Shown in pieces: positions 35,680 through 46,402 of a DNA stretch of 64,000 nucleotides. The position numbers and the translations under genes are program-made. The stretch lies in the NCBI RefSeq assembly GCF_003023845.1, contig NZ_PYFT01000001.1, positions 1,426,001 through 1,490,000 of the forward strand, read 5' to 3'. The DNA comes from Adhaeribacter arboris. Its GTDB lineage: Bacteria; Bacteroidota; Bacteroidia; Cytophagales; Hymenobacteraceae. Under the pieces are notes generated by a model. The model made no database searches, was not told where the DNA came from, and saw nothing but the letters and a program-made list of their open reading frames with translations. The first letter of the stretch is position 1. Each line of letters opens with the position of its first letter.

Positions 35680-36237
35680 TCAAAAAAAGCTGATTAACTG
35701 GCGTCTTAGGCTGGAAATAGCACTGGAAATTTGCGCTTCTACCGTTTTTACGGAAGTACCCATTTTTTCGGCTACTTTGCTATAGGTCATACCGTGTTCC
35801 CGGTTCAGATAAAAAGCATCCCGGGTGCGGGGAGGTAAATTAGCCAAAGCCGCGGCGTAGCCTTTTATTAATTCCAGATGGGCAAATTTTTCTTCTAATT
35901 GGTTATCGGCGATATCTGCTTCGTTTAACTCATCGCGGGAAATAAATTTAATCTGCTTCTTTTTACTCGTTTCCCGCAACACAAAATTACGAGCGACGAT
36001 AATAATATAGGCCTTTACGTTTTTAATACCGGCTAAGTGCAAGGTTGCTCTTTGATCCCACAATTTAAGAGAGATCTCCTGAATCCAATCTTTGATTTGC
36101 TCCGGATCGCGCGAGTAGCGTAACAGAGATCGCGCTAAAGATTCGTAGTAAAGATGAAACAACTCTTGGAAAGCATCTTTATTATCCTGAGCAATTAATT
36201 CTAACAATTCTTTATCCGTGTAAATTGGCTTCTTCAT
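35680..36237 (-). CDS. ECF-type RNA polymerase sigma factor
   Basis: A 185-residue sigma-70 factor of the FecI-like group. Region 2 (about 22-92: FQELFHLYYESLARSLLRY, then W-I-Q-E-I-S-L-K-L-W) binds the -10 element. Region 4 (about 130-180: LPPRTRDAFYLNREHGMTY, S-V-K-T-V-E-A-Q-I) is the helix-turn-helix for the -35. It is the first gene of the sigma-fecR-susC-susD series and probably controls that series. Held inactive by FecR until substrate binds SusC. Confidence 0.93.
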   Translation of the reverse strand: MKKPIYTDKELLELIAQDNKDAFQELFHLYYESLARSLLRYSRDPEQIKDWIQEISLKLWDQRATLHLAGIKNVKAYIIIVARNFVLRETSKKKQIKFISRDELNEADIADNQLEEKFAHLELIKGYAAALANLPPRTRDAFYLNREHGMTYSKVAEKMGTSVKTVEAQISSAISSLRRQLISFF

Positions 36238-36852: not shown

Positions 36853-38514
36853 TTAGAAAGTGTAGCCTAACTTGTGTACCAATATTTGCCAGTCTAAACC
36901 TTGCCGGTAAGAGGCCTCGGAGTAACCAGAACCTGCTCCTAAAAGGGTGTCTAGCTGGGTTAAATATCCTTGAATACTTTTTTGCAATTTCTCGTCTTTA
37001 GGCCAGGCTCCACTTGCCCGACGCATCGACTGCCGGAAAATACGGTAGACGGCTGGATTACTAATATCTTCGTGTTCAGTGCATGGCCATTCTTTGGGGT
37101 TAGCCGCCAAGTACAAAATGGCTTCTATGGCCTTTTTAATCGAAACTCCTTCCAGAGTAACGTAATTCCACAGATCTACTCCGGCATTTTCAGCCAGGCT
37201 ACCTAAACGCAATAAAAAATCCAGGTTTTTTTGGCAATAAGTGGCGGGTTTGGTTCGCCTCAACTCTTCGGGCATCGCGCCTGCTGGTACCGGAATTTCT
37301 TTACTAGCTCCTGTTTGGTCTTTTACCTCTATCTTGCCTGCTTGGGGTAAAATTTGGTTAGATAGTAAACCTTTAGAAGTTTCAGTATCTTTGATTACAG
37401 TATTAATTTCATTCACCACCCAGGCATCTTCGCCGATAAATTGAGCATAGGTTAATACTTGTAGTTCGTAAGCACTCCGGATATTATTCTGCGCATTTTT
37501 AATCCCGAGCATCATTTCGTAATGATAATAATCCTCAGTACCTTCCTTAGGAACCTCTTTATAAGTCGTCGTCATCCACTCCCATAAACTCCGGAACCAA
37601 TCTTTTAACCCTGAATCTACGTCAGAAGCCGCTTCAAATGCCTTTGATTCTCCCAACAACTGGTAGCCATCTAATAATATCGTTAATACTTCCGCATCTA
37701 CAAACCCGGTAGCCCGGCCAAATCCGTTGTTCATGCCCTGAATAATTTGCGCGTATTTAAAATGAGGATTCATCCGGGTGGTTTTGTCCAGAAAAAAAGC
37801 CTGCAATAATTTCAAAGCTTGTTCGGCGTACGCTTCCTTCCTGGTAAAAAAATAACCTAAACCTAAAAACTGAATATCTTCACAAATATTCCGTAATAAG
37901 GTTTGGTCCGGAATGGCATTGGATTCGGGATTAGTTTTTCCGTCACTAGCCAGGTAGGGTAATCCGTTTTCCGTGGTTGGATCCGGCCACCAATAAGTAG
38001 CTAAACTTACGTAATCGTTGGGCGATCCGGTAGCTACCATAGGTTTGGTAATAGTGGCACCACTTTCATCCTGAAAACGATAAGTATCCGGTTTGGGAGC
38101 AATGCCGTAAGGAGTTTTAGCCAAGATGGTCCGGCTCTTAATGTAGCTTTTAAGCTTATTAACTGCAGTTTTTAAAACAATCCGGTCAGAGGCTCCGGCC
38201 AATACTGCCTTATACGTCTCGACATTCGTTTGCAACGCGGTAAATGACCAAGTAAATGTTCCTCTTATGGGATTAGCTCCTAAATTAAAATCAGGTAGAT
38301 GGAAGTCATCATCTTGGTCACTAGTACTATTTTCCCCCGGCTCAAGTTCCCCATAGTCAAAGTTGAGGTATTCGTCCTCCGATAAGGGTTGTGTAGTAAC
38401 AGATTCAGGTTCATCTAATGTAATTGTTGGTACTCCATCCGTCAGAATGGATGCCTTTAGCGGCGCGTGCTCACTAATTTGCTTATTTAAATTGTCGATA
38501 GTATTGGTTTCCAT
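36853..38514 (-). CDS. Alginate-lyase-family protein without a signal peptide
   Basis: A 553-residue protein. The core (about 165-520) contains N-D-Y-V-S-L-A-T-Y-W-W-P-D-P near residue 170, then Y-A-Q-I-I-Q-G and a YHYEMMLGIKNAQNN segment. This is the (alpha/alpha) toroid of the Pfam 'Alginate_lyase' family seen in bacteroidete polysaccharide loci. The first 90 residues are acidic, low-complexity and begin METNTIDNLN; there is no export signal, unusual for a lyase. It lies upstream of the ECF/FecR/SusCD genes on the same strand, 615 bases away. Polysaccharide lyase activity is inferred; substrate unproven. Confidence 0.8.
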   Translation of the reverse strand: METNTIDNLNKQISEHAPLKASILTDGVPTITLDEPESVTTQPLSEDEYLNFDYGELEPGENSTSDQDDDFHLPDFNLGANPIRGTFTWSFTALQTNVETYKAVLAGASDRIVLKTAVNKLKSYIKSRTILAKTPYGIAPKPDTYRFQDESGATITKPMVATGSPNDYVSLATYWWPDPTTENGLPYLASDGKTNPESNAIPDQTLLRNICEDIQFLGLGYFFTRKEAYAEQALKLLQAFFLDKTTRMNPHFKYAQIIQGMNNGFGRATGFVDAEVLTILLDGYQLLGESKAFEAASDVDSGLKDWFRSLWEWMTTTYKEVPKEGTEDYYHYEMMLGIKNAQNNIRSAYELQVLTYAQFIGEDAWVVNEINTVIKDTETSKGLLSNQILPQAGKIEVKDQTGASKEIPVPAGAMPEELRRTKPATYCQKNLDFLLRLGSLAENAGVDLWNYVTLEGVSIKKAIEAILYLAANPKEWPCTEHEDISNPAVYRIFRQSMRRASGAWPKDEKLQKSIQGYLTQLDTLLGAGSGYSEASYRQGLDWQILVHKLGYTF

Positions 38515-41747: not shown

Positions 41748-43487
41748 TTATACCGGAAAACTATATTTAACAATACGTTTGTATAACTCATCCGGGTTAA
41801 AAGGCTTACTTAAATAATCATTCATGCCCACTTGGAAAGCTCTGTCCTGGATATCTAACATAGCCGAAGCGGTTAAAGCAATAATTGGCAATTTTTGGTA
41901 CTTCTCCCCTTCTAACCGCCGTATCGCTAAAGTTGTATCGTAACCATCTTGTTCCGGCATTTGCAAGTCCATCAAAACTAGGTTATAATCTTTGCTCTTT
42001 ACAAGATCCAATGCAATTAACCCGTTTTCCGCAATATCAAACTCAATTTCCCATTGGTTTAAAAATTGTTTTACCAGAAAAATATTAATCTGATTATCTT
42101 CCGCAATTAAGAGCCGGATTCCTTTTAAACTTTTTGGAGCAGAAACTAGGAGTTCCTTAGAGTCCGGAGAAAGTTGTTGGTTACTGTTTTCGAAGGTTAA
42201 GCTAAAGTAAAAAGTAGATCCTTTGCCTACCTGACTTTCTACAAAAATTTCGCTGCCTTGTAATTTAAGCAAGTGCTTGATAATCGTAAGCCCTAAACCA
42301 GAGCCACCAAATTCACGGGTGGTATCGGATTTAGCTTGCGTAAAACTTTCAAAAATAAGATCCAGTTTATCCGCTGGAATACCGATCCCCGTATCGTTAA
42401 CCCGAAAATCAATGGTAGTATGCGTTTCATTTTGGTCCTTAACCGCCGCCGAAATAGTAACACGACCTGTTTTTGTAAACTTTACCGCATTGCTGATGAG
42501 GTTGGTTAAAATCTGGCTCAACCGGACCGGGTCTCCCACTAAGGAAGAAGGTAAGTCCTGATCTAACAATAACTTTAGTTGTAAACCTTTTTCAATGGCT
42601 ATTTGCTGAAGTGGACCGCTAATCTTGGTAATAAGTTTTTTTAGGTCAAAGTCAATTTTCTCAAATTCGATTTTTCCGGCTTCTATTTTACTAAAGTCTA
42701 AAATATCATTTATTAACGTTAGTAAGTTATCCGCCGAAAACTTGAGTACTTTTAAATATTCCTGCTGATCTGGCCGGGGATCGTTGTTGAGCAATAAACT
42801 GGTAAAACCAATAACAGCATTCATAGGCGTCCGAATTTCGTGACTCATGGTCGACAAGAAATTGCTTTTAGCCTCGTTCGCTGCTTCCGCTTTATTTTTT
42901 GCTTCGATTAACTCTTTTTCGGTTTGCTTAAGCTTGGAGATATCTTTGGCAATAATTAAAATACCTTCTACTTCTTTAGCATTATTCTTTAAAAAGGAGA
43001 AAGAACAGGAAGCAGGAATCTTAATATCCTGCTTCGTGGTAAACATTAATTCCTCATTTAAAACCTTACCCTGATGTTTAAACTTTTCCATTAAAACGGG
43101 CAAAGAGGAATTATCGCTGTGCTGAACAAATGAAGAAAAAGGAATTCCTGTTAATTCTGCTTCGCTATAACCAAGTAATTCCTCTACCGCTTCGTTTACA
43201 TTCCGAATGGTGAAATCCGTGTTCAGAATCAGGAGCATATCTACTACTCCCTGATAAATGCTCTGCATAAAATCTCGGGAAACAGTAGAGTTTTTAAGCT
43301 CCTGTCCTAGCATACTTACCCCAGCAATAACAGCATCTAATTCATCGCCGGTTTCGGAAGCATCCATTTTGTAATCAAAATTTCCGTTTGCTACTTCCGC
43401 AATCAGGGTAGTTATTTCCTCAATTCTATCGTTCAGAACTTTCACGTAATTGATTTTAAACTGTAATTCAATCTTTTTCAACAGCAA
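41748..43487 (-). CDS. Cytosolic hybrid histidine kinase (HAMP-PAS-HisKA-HATPase-REC)
   Basis: A 579-residue protein without any membrane segment. Order: HAMP-like helices (about 15-65, VANGNFDYKMDASETGDEL), PAS (about 70-185), HisKA with His216 (MSHEIRTPMN), HATPase_c (about 325-440, DTGIGIP, GGSGLGLTI) and a C-terminal receiver with Asp507 (VLMDLQMPEQDG). It starts with TTG at 43487 inside the end of the PLP-acyltransferase gene, overlapping by 20 bases. This argues for translational coupling and a shared task. There is no separate output domain. Confidence 0.88.
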   Translation of the reverse strand: MLLKKIELQFKINYVKVLNDRIEEITTLIAEVANGNFDYKMDASETGDELDAVIAGVSMLGQELKNSTVSRDFMQSIYQGVVDMLLILNTDFTIRNVNEAVEELLGYSEAELTGIPFSSFVQHSDNSSLPVLMEKFKHQGKVLNEELMFTTKQDIKIPASCSFSFLKNNAKEVEGILIIAKDISKLKQTEKELIEAKNKAEAANEAKSNFLSTMSHEIRTPMNAVIGFTSLLLNNDPRPDQQEYLKVLKFSADNLLTLINDILDFSKIEAGKIEFEKIDFDLKKLITKISGPLQQIAIEKGLQLKLLLDQDLPSSLVGDPVRLSQILTNLISNAVKFTKTGRVTISAAVKDQNETHTTIDFRVNDTGIGIPADKLDLIFESFTQAKSDTTREFGGSGLGLTIIKHLLKLQGSEIFVESQVGKGSTFYFSLTFENSNQQLSPDSKELLVSAPKSLKGIRLLIAEDNQINIFLVKQFLNQWEIEFDIAENGLIALDLVKSKDYNLVLMDLQMPEQDGYDTTLAIRRLEGEKYQKLPIIALTASAMLDIQDRAFQVGMNDYLSKPFNPDELYKRIVKYSFPV

Positions 43488-45912
43488 TGGTAGCTTCTAT
43501 TAACTCCATTGCATAGTTGTCTTTGGCCTGGTAATAACCTACTTTAGGGTATAAAGTAGCTCCTACTCTTTTCTTTTCGATAGTGGCTGATATGCCAAAA
43601 TTTATTTTTTGGCAACCTAGAGCATTGGCTCTTTTAATTACCTGATAAAGAGTTTGGCGGTAAATGCCGTACTCTATTAAATAATCATAATCCATACCAA
43701 TTAACATAGGACTGTAGATTTCCGCGTTGTTTTTATGGCAAAAGCACACAGAAACCGGTTTTTTGTTATGCGAGTGTTCTTCTTTCAGGTATAATACCAC
43801 AAATTCCCATGCCGGATCAGCGTTCATCTCGTAAAAAAGTTTATCCGGAAAAAGAAAGTTATTTATGGCAACATTATTATCTTTTACGTTTTTAAACAAG
43901 GTTATCGCATATTCTAGTTCCTCAACTGGCAACTGGTTTTTAACTTTAACCTCAAAGAAATGCTCATTTCTTTTAATTTTTTGGGCAAAATGCCTTCTAC
44001 TTTTCCGAGAAATGCTTTCTAAGTAACCTTCTTCAGAGGCCCAGTTTAAATTCTCCAGCACACACGATTCCGGCATATCTACTTTCACGAAGCCTTGACC
44101 AACCATAAATTCGTCCATTTCGGTGTCATTGGCAGCAAAATCCCGTAAGATTATATTACTCGCATTAACATTTTCTTGCTCCTTAAAGAGTTCATCCATT
44201 ACGGCTTTGAACGCTTTTTTCCAATAAGGACTTTCTCTATCCAGGTAAATATGTTCGCCTTCTGTGAACAAGCTACCCATAATAATACCCGTTGAGGTTA
44301 GATAATAAGGATTGAGTTCTCTTTCTTTCTCTATTACCTTAGATACGGAACTTTGAGAGAACATATCTTCTTTGTGCAGACCCACCACTAAAAATGTAAT
44401 TAAAACAATTTTACCTTGGTTGTCTTCTACTACATAATATTTAAAATCCCAATTGTTTTCTGGTTCTTCGTTGTTGCGGAAAGTGGTTTCTAAAAATTTC
44501 AACCCATTCCAATCAATCATGCCGGTATTTCCTAAGTATTTATTCCAAATAGCAGGATCAATTTTTTCGATGGAGGAATAGCGCTTAATGTTAAGCTGAT
44601 TTTCAATAACCAGCTTAAGAGTAGTAGAAGTTGAAACGTGCGTTGAAGGAGCCATTTTAAAAGCTTTCCGGATTTTCTCATCGGTCTGGTTGGTTTCCTT
44701 TAAGGCTCTAGTGAAATGATGTTTCAGTTTATCTACCAATATCTCAATATGCTCCAGTGAATTGTTGAGGGAAATGGTAATCCGGATACCAATATTCTTT
44801 GCCGGAACAGCCGGGAAGGTGGCCAGATTAACGTAAATACCATCGTTTAACAATTCATGAACCAGGTAATTACCCATTTCCATGGTTCCCGTGCCAATAA
44901 AGAATATCGGACTATTGTTCTCGTGAACTAAAGGCAGGTTTGTTTGTTTCAGTAAGGTATTAAAATAAGTTATTTTTTGCTGTAATTCTTCTTGGTATTC
45001 ATAAATCTCATTACTTAAATGGATGCGGGCAGAGGCAATAGCAGCACCCAAAGTAGCCGGTTCTATTTGCACGGAAAAAGTAAGTGGCCCCCCAAAGTTA
45101 TTCACTTTATTGTACCATTCTTCGTTCGGGAAAAGCGATAAACCACCACAGGCTCCAAATCCTTTACCAAGATTAGCGGTAAGAATCATTTTACGGTACA
45201 ATCCTTCGGGCATTTGGCTCATAACATAACCGGTACCGTGTTTGCCGGCCCAGCTCATACCATGCGCATCATCTACGTATAAATATAGTGGTTCGTACTT
45301 CTCGGCTAAAGCAATCAGCTCTTTCACAGGAGCGTAGTCTCCGTACATGGAGTAAACCCCATCGGCCATGTACCAGATTTTATCATATTTATTTCGTTGC
45401 TTTTTAATCCGGTCTTCGAGCATTTCCAGATTATTATGCCGGATCATTTCTACGGCTACTCCTTGGCTTAATAATTTTTTTACCGCTTCCTGCACACTAG
45501 CGTGTACCTGGTGATCCAGAATTACTAAATCATTGGAACGTATAATGCTAGGGATAGTAGTTAAATGCGAAAGGGTACAATTTTTAGAAATAACAACCGG
45601 AGCATTGTACATTTTTTGAATCATACTTTCCAGTTCGCTGTATAAAGGATTGGAAATATACGTGCGCGACATGGGAAACTGAGTTCCGAAACGCTGAATG
45701 GCATCAATGGCACTTGCTTTAATTTCAGGATGATGTTCTAATCCCAGATAGCCGCACGTACCAAAATGAAGAACTTGATGACCATTTAAGGTTAGAGACT
45801 GTCCGTTTAAAGAATGATCTTGCGCGTGCAGGTGAATAATTCCTTTCTTTTTGGACACTGACAAAACAGAATCTACAGTATCTAAAATATTATTGTGTCT
45901 AATCTTTGCCAT
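43468..45912 (-). CDS. Fusion of BioF/KBL-like PLP synthase and GNAT-fold acyltransferase
   Basis: An 814-residue two-part enzyme. Residues 1-400 are an alpha-oxoamine-synthase-type fold type I PLP domain: His137 in the D-H-Q-V-H-A-S loop, D214-D-A-H-G, and the PLP lysine Lys250 in ANLGKGFGACGG. Such enzymes condense an acyl thioester with an amino acid (BioF, KBL, Spt, CqsA, LqsA). Residues about 430-814 look like a tandem GNAT/FemAB-type acyltransferase (S-R-K-S-R-R-H-F-A-Q-K-I-K-R-N; V-G-Y-Y near the end). No biotin genes are nearby. It overlaps the hybrid kinase gene. Product unknown; signal synthesis and sphingoid-type lipid synthesis are both possible. Confidence 0.8.
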   Translation of the reverse strand: MAKIRHNNILDTVDSVLSVSKKKGIIHLHAQDHSLNGQSLTLNGHQVLHFGTCGYLGLEHHPEIKASAIDAIQRFGTQFPMSRTYISNPLYSELESMIQKMYNAPVVISKNCTLSHLTTIPSIIRSNDLVILDHQVHASVQEAVKKLLSQGVAVEMIRHNNLEMLEDRIKKQRNKYDKIWYMADGVYSMYGDYAPVKELIALAEKYEPLYLYVDDAHGMSWAGKHGTGYVMSQMPEGLYRKMILTANLGKGFGACGGLSLFPNEEWYNKVNNFGGPLTFSVQIEPATLGAAIASARIHLSNEIYEYQEELQQKITYFNTLLKQTNLPLVHENNSPIFFIGTGTMEMGNYLVHELLNDGIYVNLATFPAVPAKNIGIRITISLNNSLEHIEILVDKLKHHFTRALKETNQTDEKIRKAFKMAPSTHVSTSTTLKLVIENQLNIKRYSSIEKIDPAIWNKYLGNTGMIDWNGLKFLETTFRNNEEPENNWDFKYYVVEDNQGKIVLITFLVVGLHKEDMFSQSSVSKVIEKERELNPYYLTSTGIIMGSLFTEGEHIYLDRESPYWKKAFKAVMDELFKEQENVNASNIILRDFAANDTEMDEFMVGQGFVKVDMPESCVLENLNWASEEGYLESISRKSRRHFAQKIKRNEHFFEVKVKNQLPVEELEYAITLFKNVKDNNVAINNFLFPDKLFYEMNADPAWEFVVLYLKEEHSHNKKPVSVCFCHKNNAEIYSPMLIGMDYDYLIEYGIYRQTLYQVIKRANALGCQKINFGISATIEKKRVGATLYPKVGYYQAKDNYAMELIEATIAVEKD

Positions 45913-46000
45913 TTAATCTTTAATTTTGTAGAGTTGATTTTCCTAATTTTTGTATCATAAAATTGGACAACACTAATATTGCACTTTATATTCAATTTAA

Positions 46001-46402
46001 ATGGCACAATTCCAAGAAGGTAGTAGAACCAAGAAGCAAGAAACCAAATATGTTAATATGTATATTCAAGAAGGCATCTTTCAATGCTATTTTAAAGCGA
46101 TGGATATTATGGATATAAATGTGGCGGAAGCGACTGTGCGAGACCGCTTGCAATTTTTTGAGAATACCGCTTACCCTTGCTTGTTTGATATAACGCAAGT
46201 AAAAGAAACTACTAAAGATGCCCGCGATTTTATGGCGAATGAGGGTAATAATTTAGTTTTAGCCAGTGCCATGGTGGTAAACTCTCCCATGCTTAAAATG
46301 ATGGCCAACTTTTATATAATGGTTAACAAGCCGAAAAATCCTACTCGTTTATTTACAGATCGCGAAAGTGCCTTAGAGTGGTTAGAGCAATTTAAAAGTT
46401 AG
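46001..46402 (+). CDS. Small STAS/SpoIIAA-like protein
   Basis: A 133-residue soluble protein divergent from the PLP-acyltransferase gene, with 88 bases between starts. An alternating strand/helix pattern, 'P-C-L-F-D-I-T-Q-V-K' strand, 'A-R-D-F-M-A-N-E-G-N' helix and a closing 'S-A-L-E-W-L-E-Q-F' helix suggest a STAS-like fold. It resembles the protein at 246-674. Proximity to a PAS/HAMP kinase suggests a signalling part, but no motif proves it. Confidence 0.55.
   Translation: MAQFQEGSRTKKQETKYVNMYIQEGIFQCYFKAMDIMDINVAEATVRDRLQFFENTAYPCLFDITQVKETTKDARDFMANEGNNLVLASAMVVNSPMLKMMANFYIMVNKPKNPTRLFTDRESALEWLEQFKS

Follow-up and report, generated by a model that had tools for sequence, protein, structure and literature searches.

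The stretch of DNA analysed here (the window), 64,000 nt from Adhaeribacter arboris (NZ_PYFT01000001.1, forward-strand positions 1,426,001-1,490,000), contains a candidate signalling module of three genes, all judged to be real: a synthase in which a pyridoxal phosphate (PLP)-dependent domain is fused to a transferase, a cytosolic hybrid kinase on the same strand, and a divergently encoded STAS protein. Related loci occur in the window's own family (f1, probably Hymenobacteraceae) and in a second family of the same class (f25, probably Flavobacteriaceae). The features of the window are as follows.

43471..45912, minus strand: fusion synthase, 814 amino acids, stop codon at 43468-43470
44713..45912, minus strand: PLP alpha-oxoamine-synthase-like domain, residues 1-400 (NCBIfam and PDB matches to residues 9-402; tree)
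45163..45165, minus strand: Lys250, predicted Schiff-base lysine, invariant in 59 fusions
45262..45273, minus strand: PLP-binding motif D214-D-A-H217, with D214, D215 and H217 invariant in the 59 fusions
43471..44700, minus strand: C-terminal tandem-GNAT (FemX-like) domain, residues 405-814
41748..43445, minus strand: cytosolic HAMP-like/PAS/HisKA/HATPase/REC hybrid kinase, likely GTG start (start of the longest open reading frame, TTG 43487)
42936..43436, minus strand: kept sensor half (HAMP-like and PAS), common to the AraC-type regulators of f25
46001..46402, plus strand: DUF7793 (PF25056) STAS/SpoIIAA-like protein, 133 amino acids, divergent
45913..46000, no strand: divergent promoter region, 88 bp, without the direct repeat of f25

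The first-pass annotation had the last 20 bases of the fusion gene overlapping the start of the kinase gene. This overlap needs the TTG start, whereas in all 14 relatives sharing the gene order the kinase reading frame opens only at what is codon 15 here, 9 to 207 bp past the stop codon of the fusion; we therefore regard the overlap as a start-codon artefact and reject translational coupling through it. The likely start in the window, GTG 43443-43445, leaves a 22-bp gap, and co-transcription of the two genes across it is plausible.

The fusion is patchily spread, as expected of an accessory trait. In the window's family 31 of 204 genomes have it (two of six genera), in f25 34 of 299 (30 of 236 genera), and some genomes have two copies; the nine that pass 1e-60 among 395 phylum-wide genomes are the window's genome, seven of f25 and one with a PLP-only relative. 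In the window's family, STAS and kinase genes lie beside the fusion in 30 of 30 loci found by tblastn, and other searches added the 31st, so that the association holds in 31/31 genomes. A wider survey yielded 66 loci, which are non-independent in that several come from one genome or genus: 61 with both fusion halves (L087 and L126 interrupted) and five with the PLP domain only. A STAS gene accompanies 57 of the 61 fusions, counting L076, where the open reading frame picker missed it and a separate search supplied it, and a sensor gene accompanies 56. The link between synthase, kinase and STAS protein, which the first-pass annotation offered as an inference to be abandoned if neighbourhoods showed no conserved kinase, is thus borne out in the window's family, and it recurs rearranged in f25, where the output is not always a kinase. 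There the sensor gene is found on the side of the STAS gene, and in 31 loci the fusion is followed, at no more than 300 bp, by a gene of the RteC family. In the loci read, the genes past the sensor encode a MauE-like membrane protein, a DUF6520 protein of small size and a third protein of about 350-370 residues, which is sometimes joined to MauE.

The window kinase exceeds the cut-offs for HisKA, HATPase_c and Response_reg, which makes it a hybrid histidine kinase, and none of 57 sensors has a strongly hydrophobic stretch, let alone six transmembrane segments; its earlier description as a HAMP-PAS hybrid kinase without membrane segments stands. What follows the HAMP-PAS half varies. By small in-house profiles, complemented by Pfam on one AraC type, L031 and the front part of L077, the output is of AraC type in 38 loci, hybrid kinase-REC in 16, a plain kinase in one (L031) and, in L032, by eye a kinase with a separate response regulator. 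The f25 sensor thus ends in an AraC-type helix-turn-helix (Pfam on one protein, our own profile on 38 loci), and that of the window's family is a hybrid kinase. A profile of 15 kinase N-termini from f1, run against nine whole genomes, gave the STAS-adjacent sensor as its top match in 8/8 genomes other than the window's; seven of these eight sensors are AraC-type and one is a hybrid kinase, and the matches span HAMP and PAS, five weaker ones mainly PAS. That a profile built from f1 alone finds the AraC-type sensors of f25 supports the homology of the sensor halves of the two families. Judged from these sequences, the constant unit is synthase, STAS protein and sensor half, with an output domain that appears to be replaceable. 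The receiving side also occurs with the synthase lost or damaged: a genome without a fusion at 1e-60 (G560, locus L186), one of the eight matched by the profile, keeps the STAS, sensor, MauE-like and peptide genes as an apparent orphan receiver, and L185 (G292) keeps the same genes beside a remnant of the first ~100 residues of the fusion.

The STAS-like protein recognized earlier as divergent from the fusion scores 141 bits against DUF7793, whose gathering score is 26. We found no text in the open-licence literature that mentions DUF7793 or DUF6520 by name. The window's genome has two more DUF7793 genes, at C1:820480 (L183) and 1394828 (L184), with no synthase or sensor nearby; the match of the former reaches 143.8 bits, compared with 140.8 for that of the module.

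The PLP domain is a fold-type-I member of the alpha-oxoamine synthase superfamily, with PDB sequence matches down to E 9.7e-38, and its catalytic residues are intact, D214 and H217 of the DxxH motif and K250 being invariant across 59 fusions; the domain assignment made from Lys250 and the DDAHG motif is confirmed. The suggested kinship with CqsA/LqsA is not: the window protein reaches 86.9 bits against the CqsA-type model NF005526 (cut-off 428), below its scores for BioF (176, cut-off 426), KBL (149, cut-off 460) and the serine palmitoyltransferase (Spt) models NF047600 (149, cut-off 640), NF047599 (150, cut-off 500) and NF047603 (128, cut-off 670). Membership in all of these families is rejected by scores under the cut-offs. 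The best family for the window protein is the PRK07505 type (NF005697), at 297.5 bits still under its cut-off of 342; all 51 members tested match it at 1e-10, with a best E-value of 7.1e-91, compared with 2.3e-26 for NF005526. In a midpoint-rooted tree with long branches, from which rows L020 and L024 were left out, the fusion PLP domains and their PLP-only relatives form one branch (99/99) adjoining rhizobial and Pantoea proteins and separate from KBL, BioF and the fatty acyltransferase (100/100), so that the firm BioF or KBL placement that would have told against the annotation did not emerge. The tree contained no CqsA sequence, and the distance from CqsA is therefore read from the scores. 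The 12 fusion rows form no supported clade apart from the PLP-only relatives, and holding them together was not rejected (p 0.31). A plasmid search matched 437 records, none across more than 80% of the query; the best 30 of the 437 are 28-35% identical over the PLP part, and three plasmid neighbourhoods (S. meliloti, Rhizobium and Pantoea) show no STAS or kinase gene in their annotation, which is incomplete.

The window's genome encodes in addition a cysteate-C-fatty-acyltransferase-type protein, which scores 605.6 bits with the solved enzyme 28eh and falls on another branch of the tree. It also has a KBL that exceeds its family cut-off and a gene, flanked by bioA- and bioB-like genes, whose product scores best with BioF (342 bits, under the cut-off of 426). 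The fusion is therefore an additional oxoamine synthase. Its residues 405-814 consist of two GNAT-like halves in the FemABX/tandem-GNAT arrangement, which upholds and refines the earlier call of a GNAT-fold acyltransferase; a PDB sequence search with a profile of this C-terminal part gave nothing meaningful.

The intergenic region between STAS gene and fusion in f25 carries a 17-bp element, about TTGYCTNNAAGGGATTA, twice, as a direct repeat with a spacing of 21 bp in 31 of 32 regions; direct repeats are the form expected of sites for AraC-family proteins. L077, L031, L032 and f25 regions outside 120-420 bp were left out of the operator test. When a matrix trained on half of the loci was tested on the other half against dinucleotide shuffles, p was at most 0.005 in 29 of the 32 regions (L121, 0.020; L144, 0.015; L133, 0.070). 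The full matrix, at a score of 18, places a site in the STAS-fusion region of 34 of 38 AraC-type loci, a count that overlaps with the training regions, and a second site, outside them, is present in 22 of the 34 AraC-type loci in which a MauE gene was found, its start lying 0-58 nt ahead of that gene; the held-out test and the MauE sites are the results independent of training. The 28 loci without an AraC-type sensor have a single site, that of L132 (f25, sensor not adjacent), and over 1.07 million positions of mononucleotide-shuffled sequence the matrix gave none. Written as a regular expression, the operator matched only 2 of 35 regions. A strict pattern gave 57 matches over 24 genomes, some surely due to chance, versus nine for the reversed control; by our own sums this is 49 versus 7 in 16 f25 genomes with the module, 5 versus 2 in six without it, and 3 versus 0 in G000 (the window's genome) and G040 together. 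G856 has none by the strict pattern and two by the matrix.

The predicted sites extend to peptide operons away from the synthase. In G848, a MauE-DUF6520 gene pair (L226) that shares one 5.7-Mb contig with the module, about 3 Mb away from it, has a site 45 nt ahead of it, and L185 and L186, which have no intact neighbouring synthase, retain the site of the peptide operon. In a DUF6520 scan four of five small proteins exceeded the cut-off; the others were named by eye, as was MauE of L185 and L186. Arrays of small, secreted-looking DUF6520-like proteins (by eye) with MauE and a companion of ~370 amino acids were seen at L223 (G632) and L224 (G848), with many copies of the 21-bp-spaced direct repeat. 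The repeat also lies near conjugation-type genes at L221 5153 (G840) and L222 8050 (G630), ~20-26 kb from the synthase, and L221 encodes a type IV secretion system coupling protein and DUF5712 by Pfam. These repeats, together with RteC beside the synthase, hint that some copies of the module may ride on or control a mobile element. Both paralogous modules of G365 have an extra site ~12 kb away, before a gene cassette (L219 10891 and L220 10710), one cassette being headed by a restriction-endonuclease-like protein (by eye).

We propose, with a probability of about 0.58, that the locus is a small-molecule signalling module, in which an N-(amino)acylated aminoketone made by the fusion is read jointly by the STAS protein and the HAMP-PAS sensor. 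The PLP domain would form an alpha-aminoketone by condensing an amino acid with an acyl thioester, and the FemX-like tandem GNAT would then acylate or aminoacylate the amino group of this aminoketone; joining both steps in one polypeptide would stop the reactive aminoketone from escaping. The small and probably lipophilic product, or its level, would be sensed in the cytosol and passed on to transcription, through a phosphorelay in the window's organism and directly through the AraC domain in f25, with feedback on the promoter between synthase and STAS genes and control over the operons of MauE-like proteins and DUF6520 peptides. With its replaceable output and with predicted sites both upstream of peptide operons and at the synthase promoter, the module has the outline of a synthase-receptor feedback circuit. 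The signal reading of the first-pass annotation is strengthened by the direct repeats of AraC type and by the exchange of output domains. More broadly, and with somewhat less than even confidence, we suggest a family of chemical communication systems in Bacteroidota, defined by a bifunctional oxoamine-synthase/FemX-like enzyme whose N-acylated aminoketone is sensed inside the cell, a HAMP-PAS receptor with STAS partner whose outputs are swapped between phosphorelay and AraC-type control, autoregulation, regulons of secreted cysteine-containing peptides, and orphan receivers.

What would the transferase half attach? Acylation or aminoacylation of the aminoketone is what the tandem-GNAT fold suggests, and the fold does not fix the acyl donor, as FemX-like folds also take aminoacyl-tRNA. 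An aminoacyl-tRNA-dependent transferase, making an aminoacyl, peptide-like aminoketone rather than a ceramide-like one, is a serious though unlikely variant, and one compatible with signalling.

It is conceivable, if rather unlikely, that the product of the fusion is a secondary metabolite or a structural lipid with no signalling role, and that the sensor does no more than adjust how much of it is made. Neighbourhoods of a regulator and an enzyme are common, and alpha-oxoamine synthases often make lipid bases. The enzyme bCerS of the bacterial ceramide pathway is proposed to acylate the ketone, 3-ketosphinganine, before its reduction (PMC11087976), so that Spt and bCerS would follow the two-step logic of the module, synthase first and N-acylation of an aminoketone second. 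The module differs from that pair in being one polypeptide with regulatory neighbours and in its 128-150 bits against Spt cut-offs of 500-670, and no ceramide-reductase-like gene was noticed beside the fusion, although no search was aimed at one. Evidence against mere self-regulation comes from a receiver without any synthase (L186) and from the predicted sites ahead of MauE-like/DUF6520 peptide operons, one such site lying far from the module. The lipid precedent of the first-pass annotation is further weakened by the separate cysteate-C-fatty-acyltransferase-type, KBL and BioF-like genes and by the patchiness of the fusion.

That the sensor answers another cue, such as redox, light or membrane state, with the product being an output, a defence or adhesion metabolite made along with secreted peptides, is quite improbable: the range of cues bound by PAS domains is wide, some STAS-sensor kinase pairs have no synthase, and sensors diverge faster than enzymes, but the synthase is the constant partner of STAS protein and sensor across two families and differing outputs, and it was in f25 alone that MauE, peptide and RteC genes were seen (MauE and peptide genes not having been profile-searched in kinase-type loci). 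As for anti-phage defence, neither the fusion nor the STAS protein gave a PADLOC match at 1e-3, nor did the one AraC-type sensor searched.

Several observations weigh against the signalling module as proposed. Four divergent fusions (L078, L079, L147 and L148; 35-41% identical to the window protein) and the five PLP-only loci have neither STAS nor HAMP-PAS sensor gene in the stretch fetched, the genomes of L147 and L148 lack any DUF7793 match, L132 of f25 has no adjacent sensor, and the second sensor of G365 fell under the 1e-6 limit of the profile search. Another locus in the genome of L185 carries an intact module. The distribution of DUF7793 is broader than that of the fusion, which occurs in only 8 of the 19 genomes over the DUF7793 cut-off among the 395: in distant genomes (L187 and L188) the STAS gene directly precedes a HAMP-PAS kinase gene without a synthase, and in G051 18 DUF7793 genes lie at a distance from the two fusions, with no adjoining sensor in the 14 stretches read (L205-L218), in one of which the gene finder showed no STAS gene. 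STAS protein and sensor therefore need not sense the product of the synthase. Kinase-type loci, the window included, have no operator site by the matrix, as expected at the window because its sensor is a kinase, and an alignment of kinase-type promoter regions gave no clear common site. In favour of the module, distances among synthase, STAS protein and sensor correlate (r 0.82-0.95; 29 f25 and 16 kinase-type loci), but such correlations also follow species descent. Sensors diverge fastest, with a mean identity of 29% versus 60% for the enzyme over the 29 f25 loci, and in one paralogous pair the enzymes are 90% and the sensors 52% identical.

By analogy, the nearest functional parallel to the proposed signalling module is CqsA/CqsS and LqsA/LqsS, in which a PLP-dependent synthase of the alpha-oxoamine superfamily is encoded beside a histidine kinase that is a six-transmembrane receptor (PMC3376566). 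The module departs from this arrangement in a PLP domain far under the CqsA-type cut-off, a fused acyltransferase, a cytosolic sensor, a STAS partner and an exchangeable output. At L088 (0..2922 counted from the PLP gene, G262) a PLP-only gene is followed on the same strand by one for a kinase-like protein of 479 amino acids whose N-terminus appears by eye to span the membrane, a layout nearer to CqsA/CqsS; the remaining PLP-only loci with two-component genes nearby, L033-L035, have a response regulator.

LuxI/LuxR-type synthase-receptor pairs and LuxR solos are a known pattern, which f25 resembles in having a cytosolic sensor-transcription factor beside a synthase with a predicted promoter site, the orphan receiver of L186 resembling a LuxR solo. 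The proteins, however, are unrelated, the module having a HAMP-PAS-AraC receptor, a STAS protein and alpha-oxoamine chemistry. The cysteate-C-fatty acyltransferase of sulfonolipid synthesis shares superfamily and genome with the fusion but is a separate gene on another branch of the tree. We know of no established native synthase-receptor pair of such a kind in environmental Bacteroidota, and a partial search of the open-licence literature showed none; a 2025 study (PMC12503165) reportedly dealt with autoinducer-2 in gut bacteria. The module supplies a concrete enzyme, receptor, predicted DNA site and reporter genes, which make the question of signalling testable. If our proposal is correct, it would represent a bacterial chemical signalling circuit not described before, in which a receptor half moves between two-component and one-component outputs beside a constant synthase, and it would give roles to DUF7793 and DUF6520.

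Elsewhere in the window, positions 36853-38514 encode a minus-strand protein of 553 amino acids that by eye resembles an alginate-lyase-type enzyme, and a gene for a sigma-70-family-like factor lies at 35680-36237.
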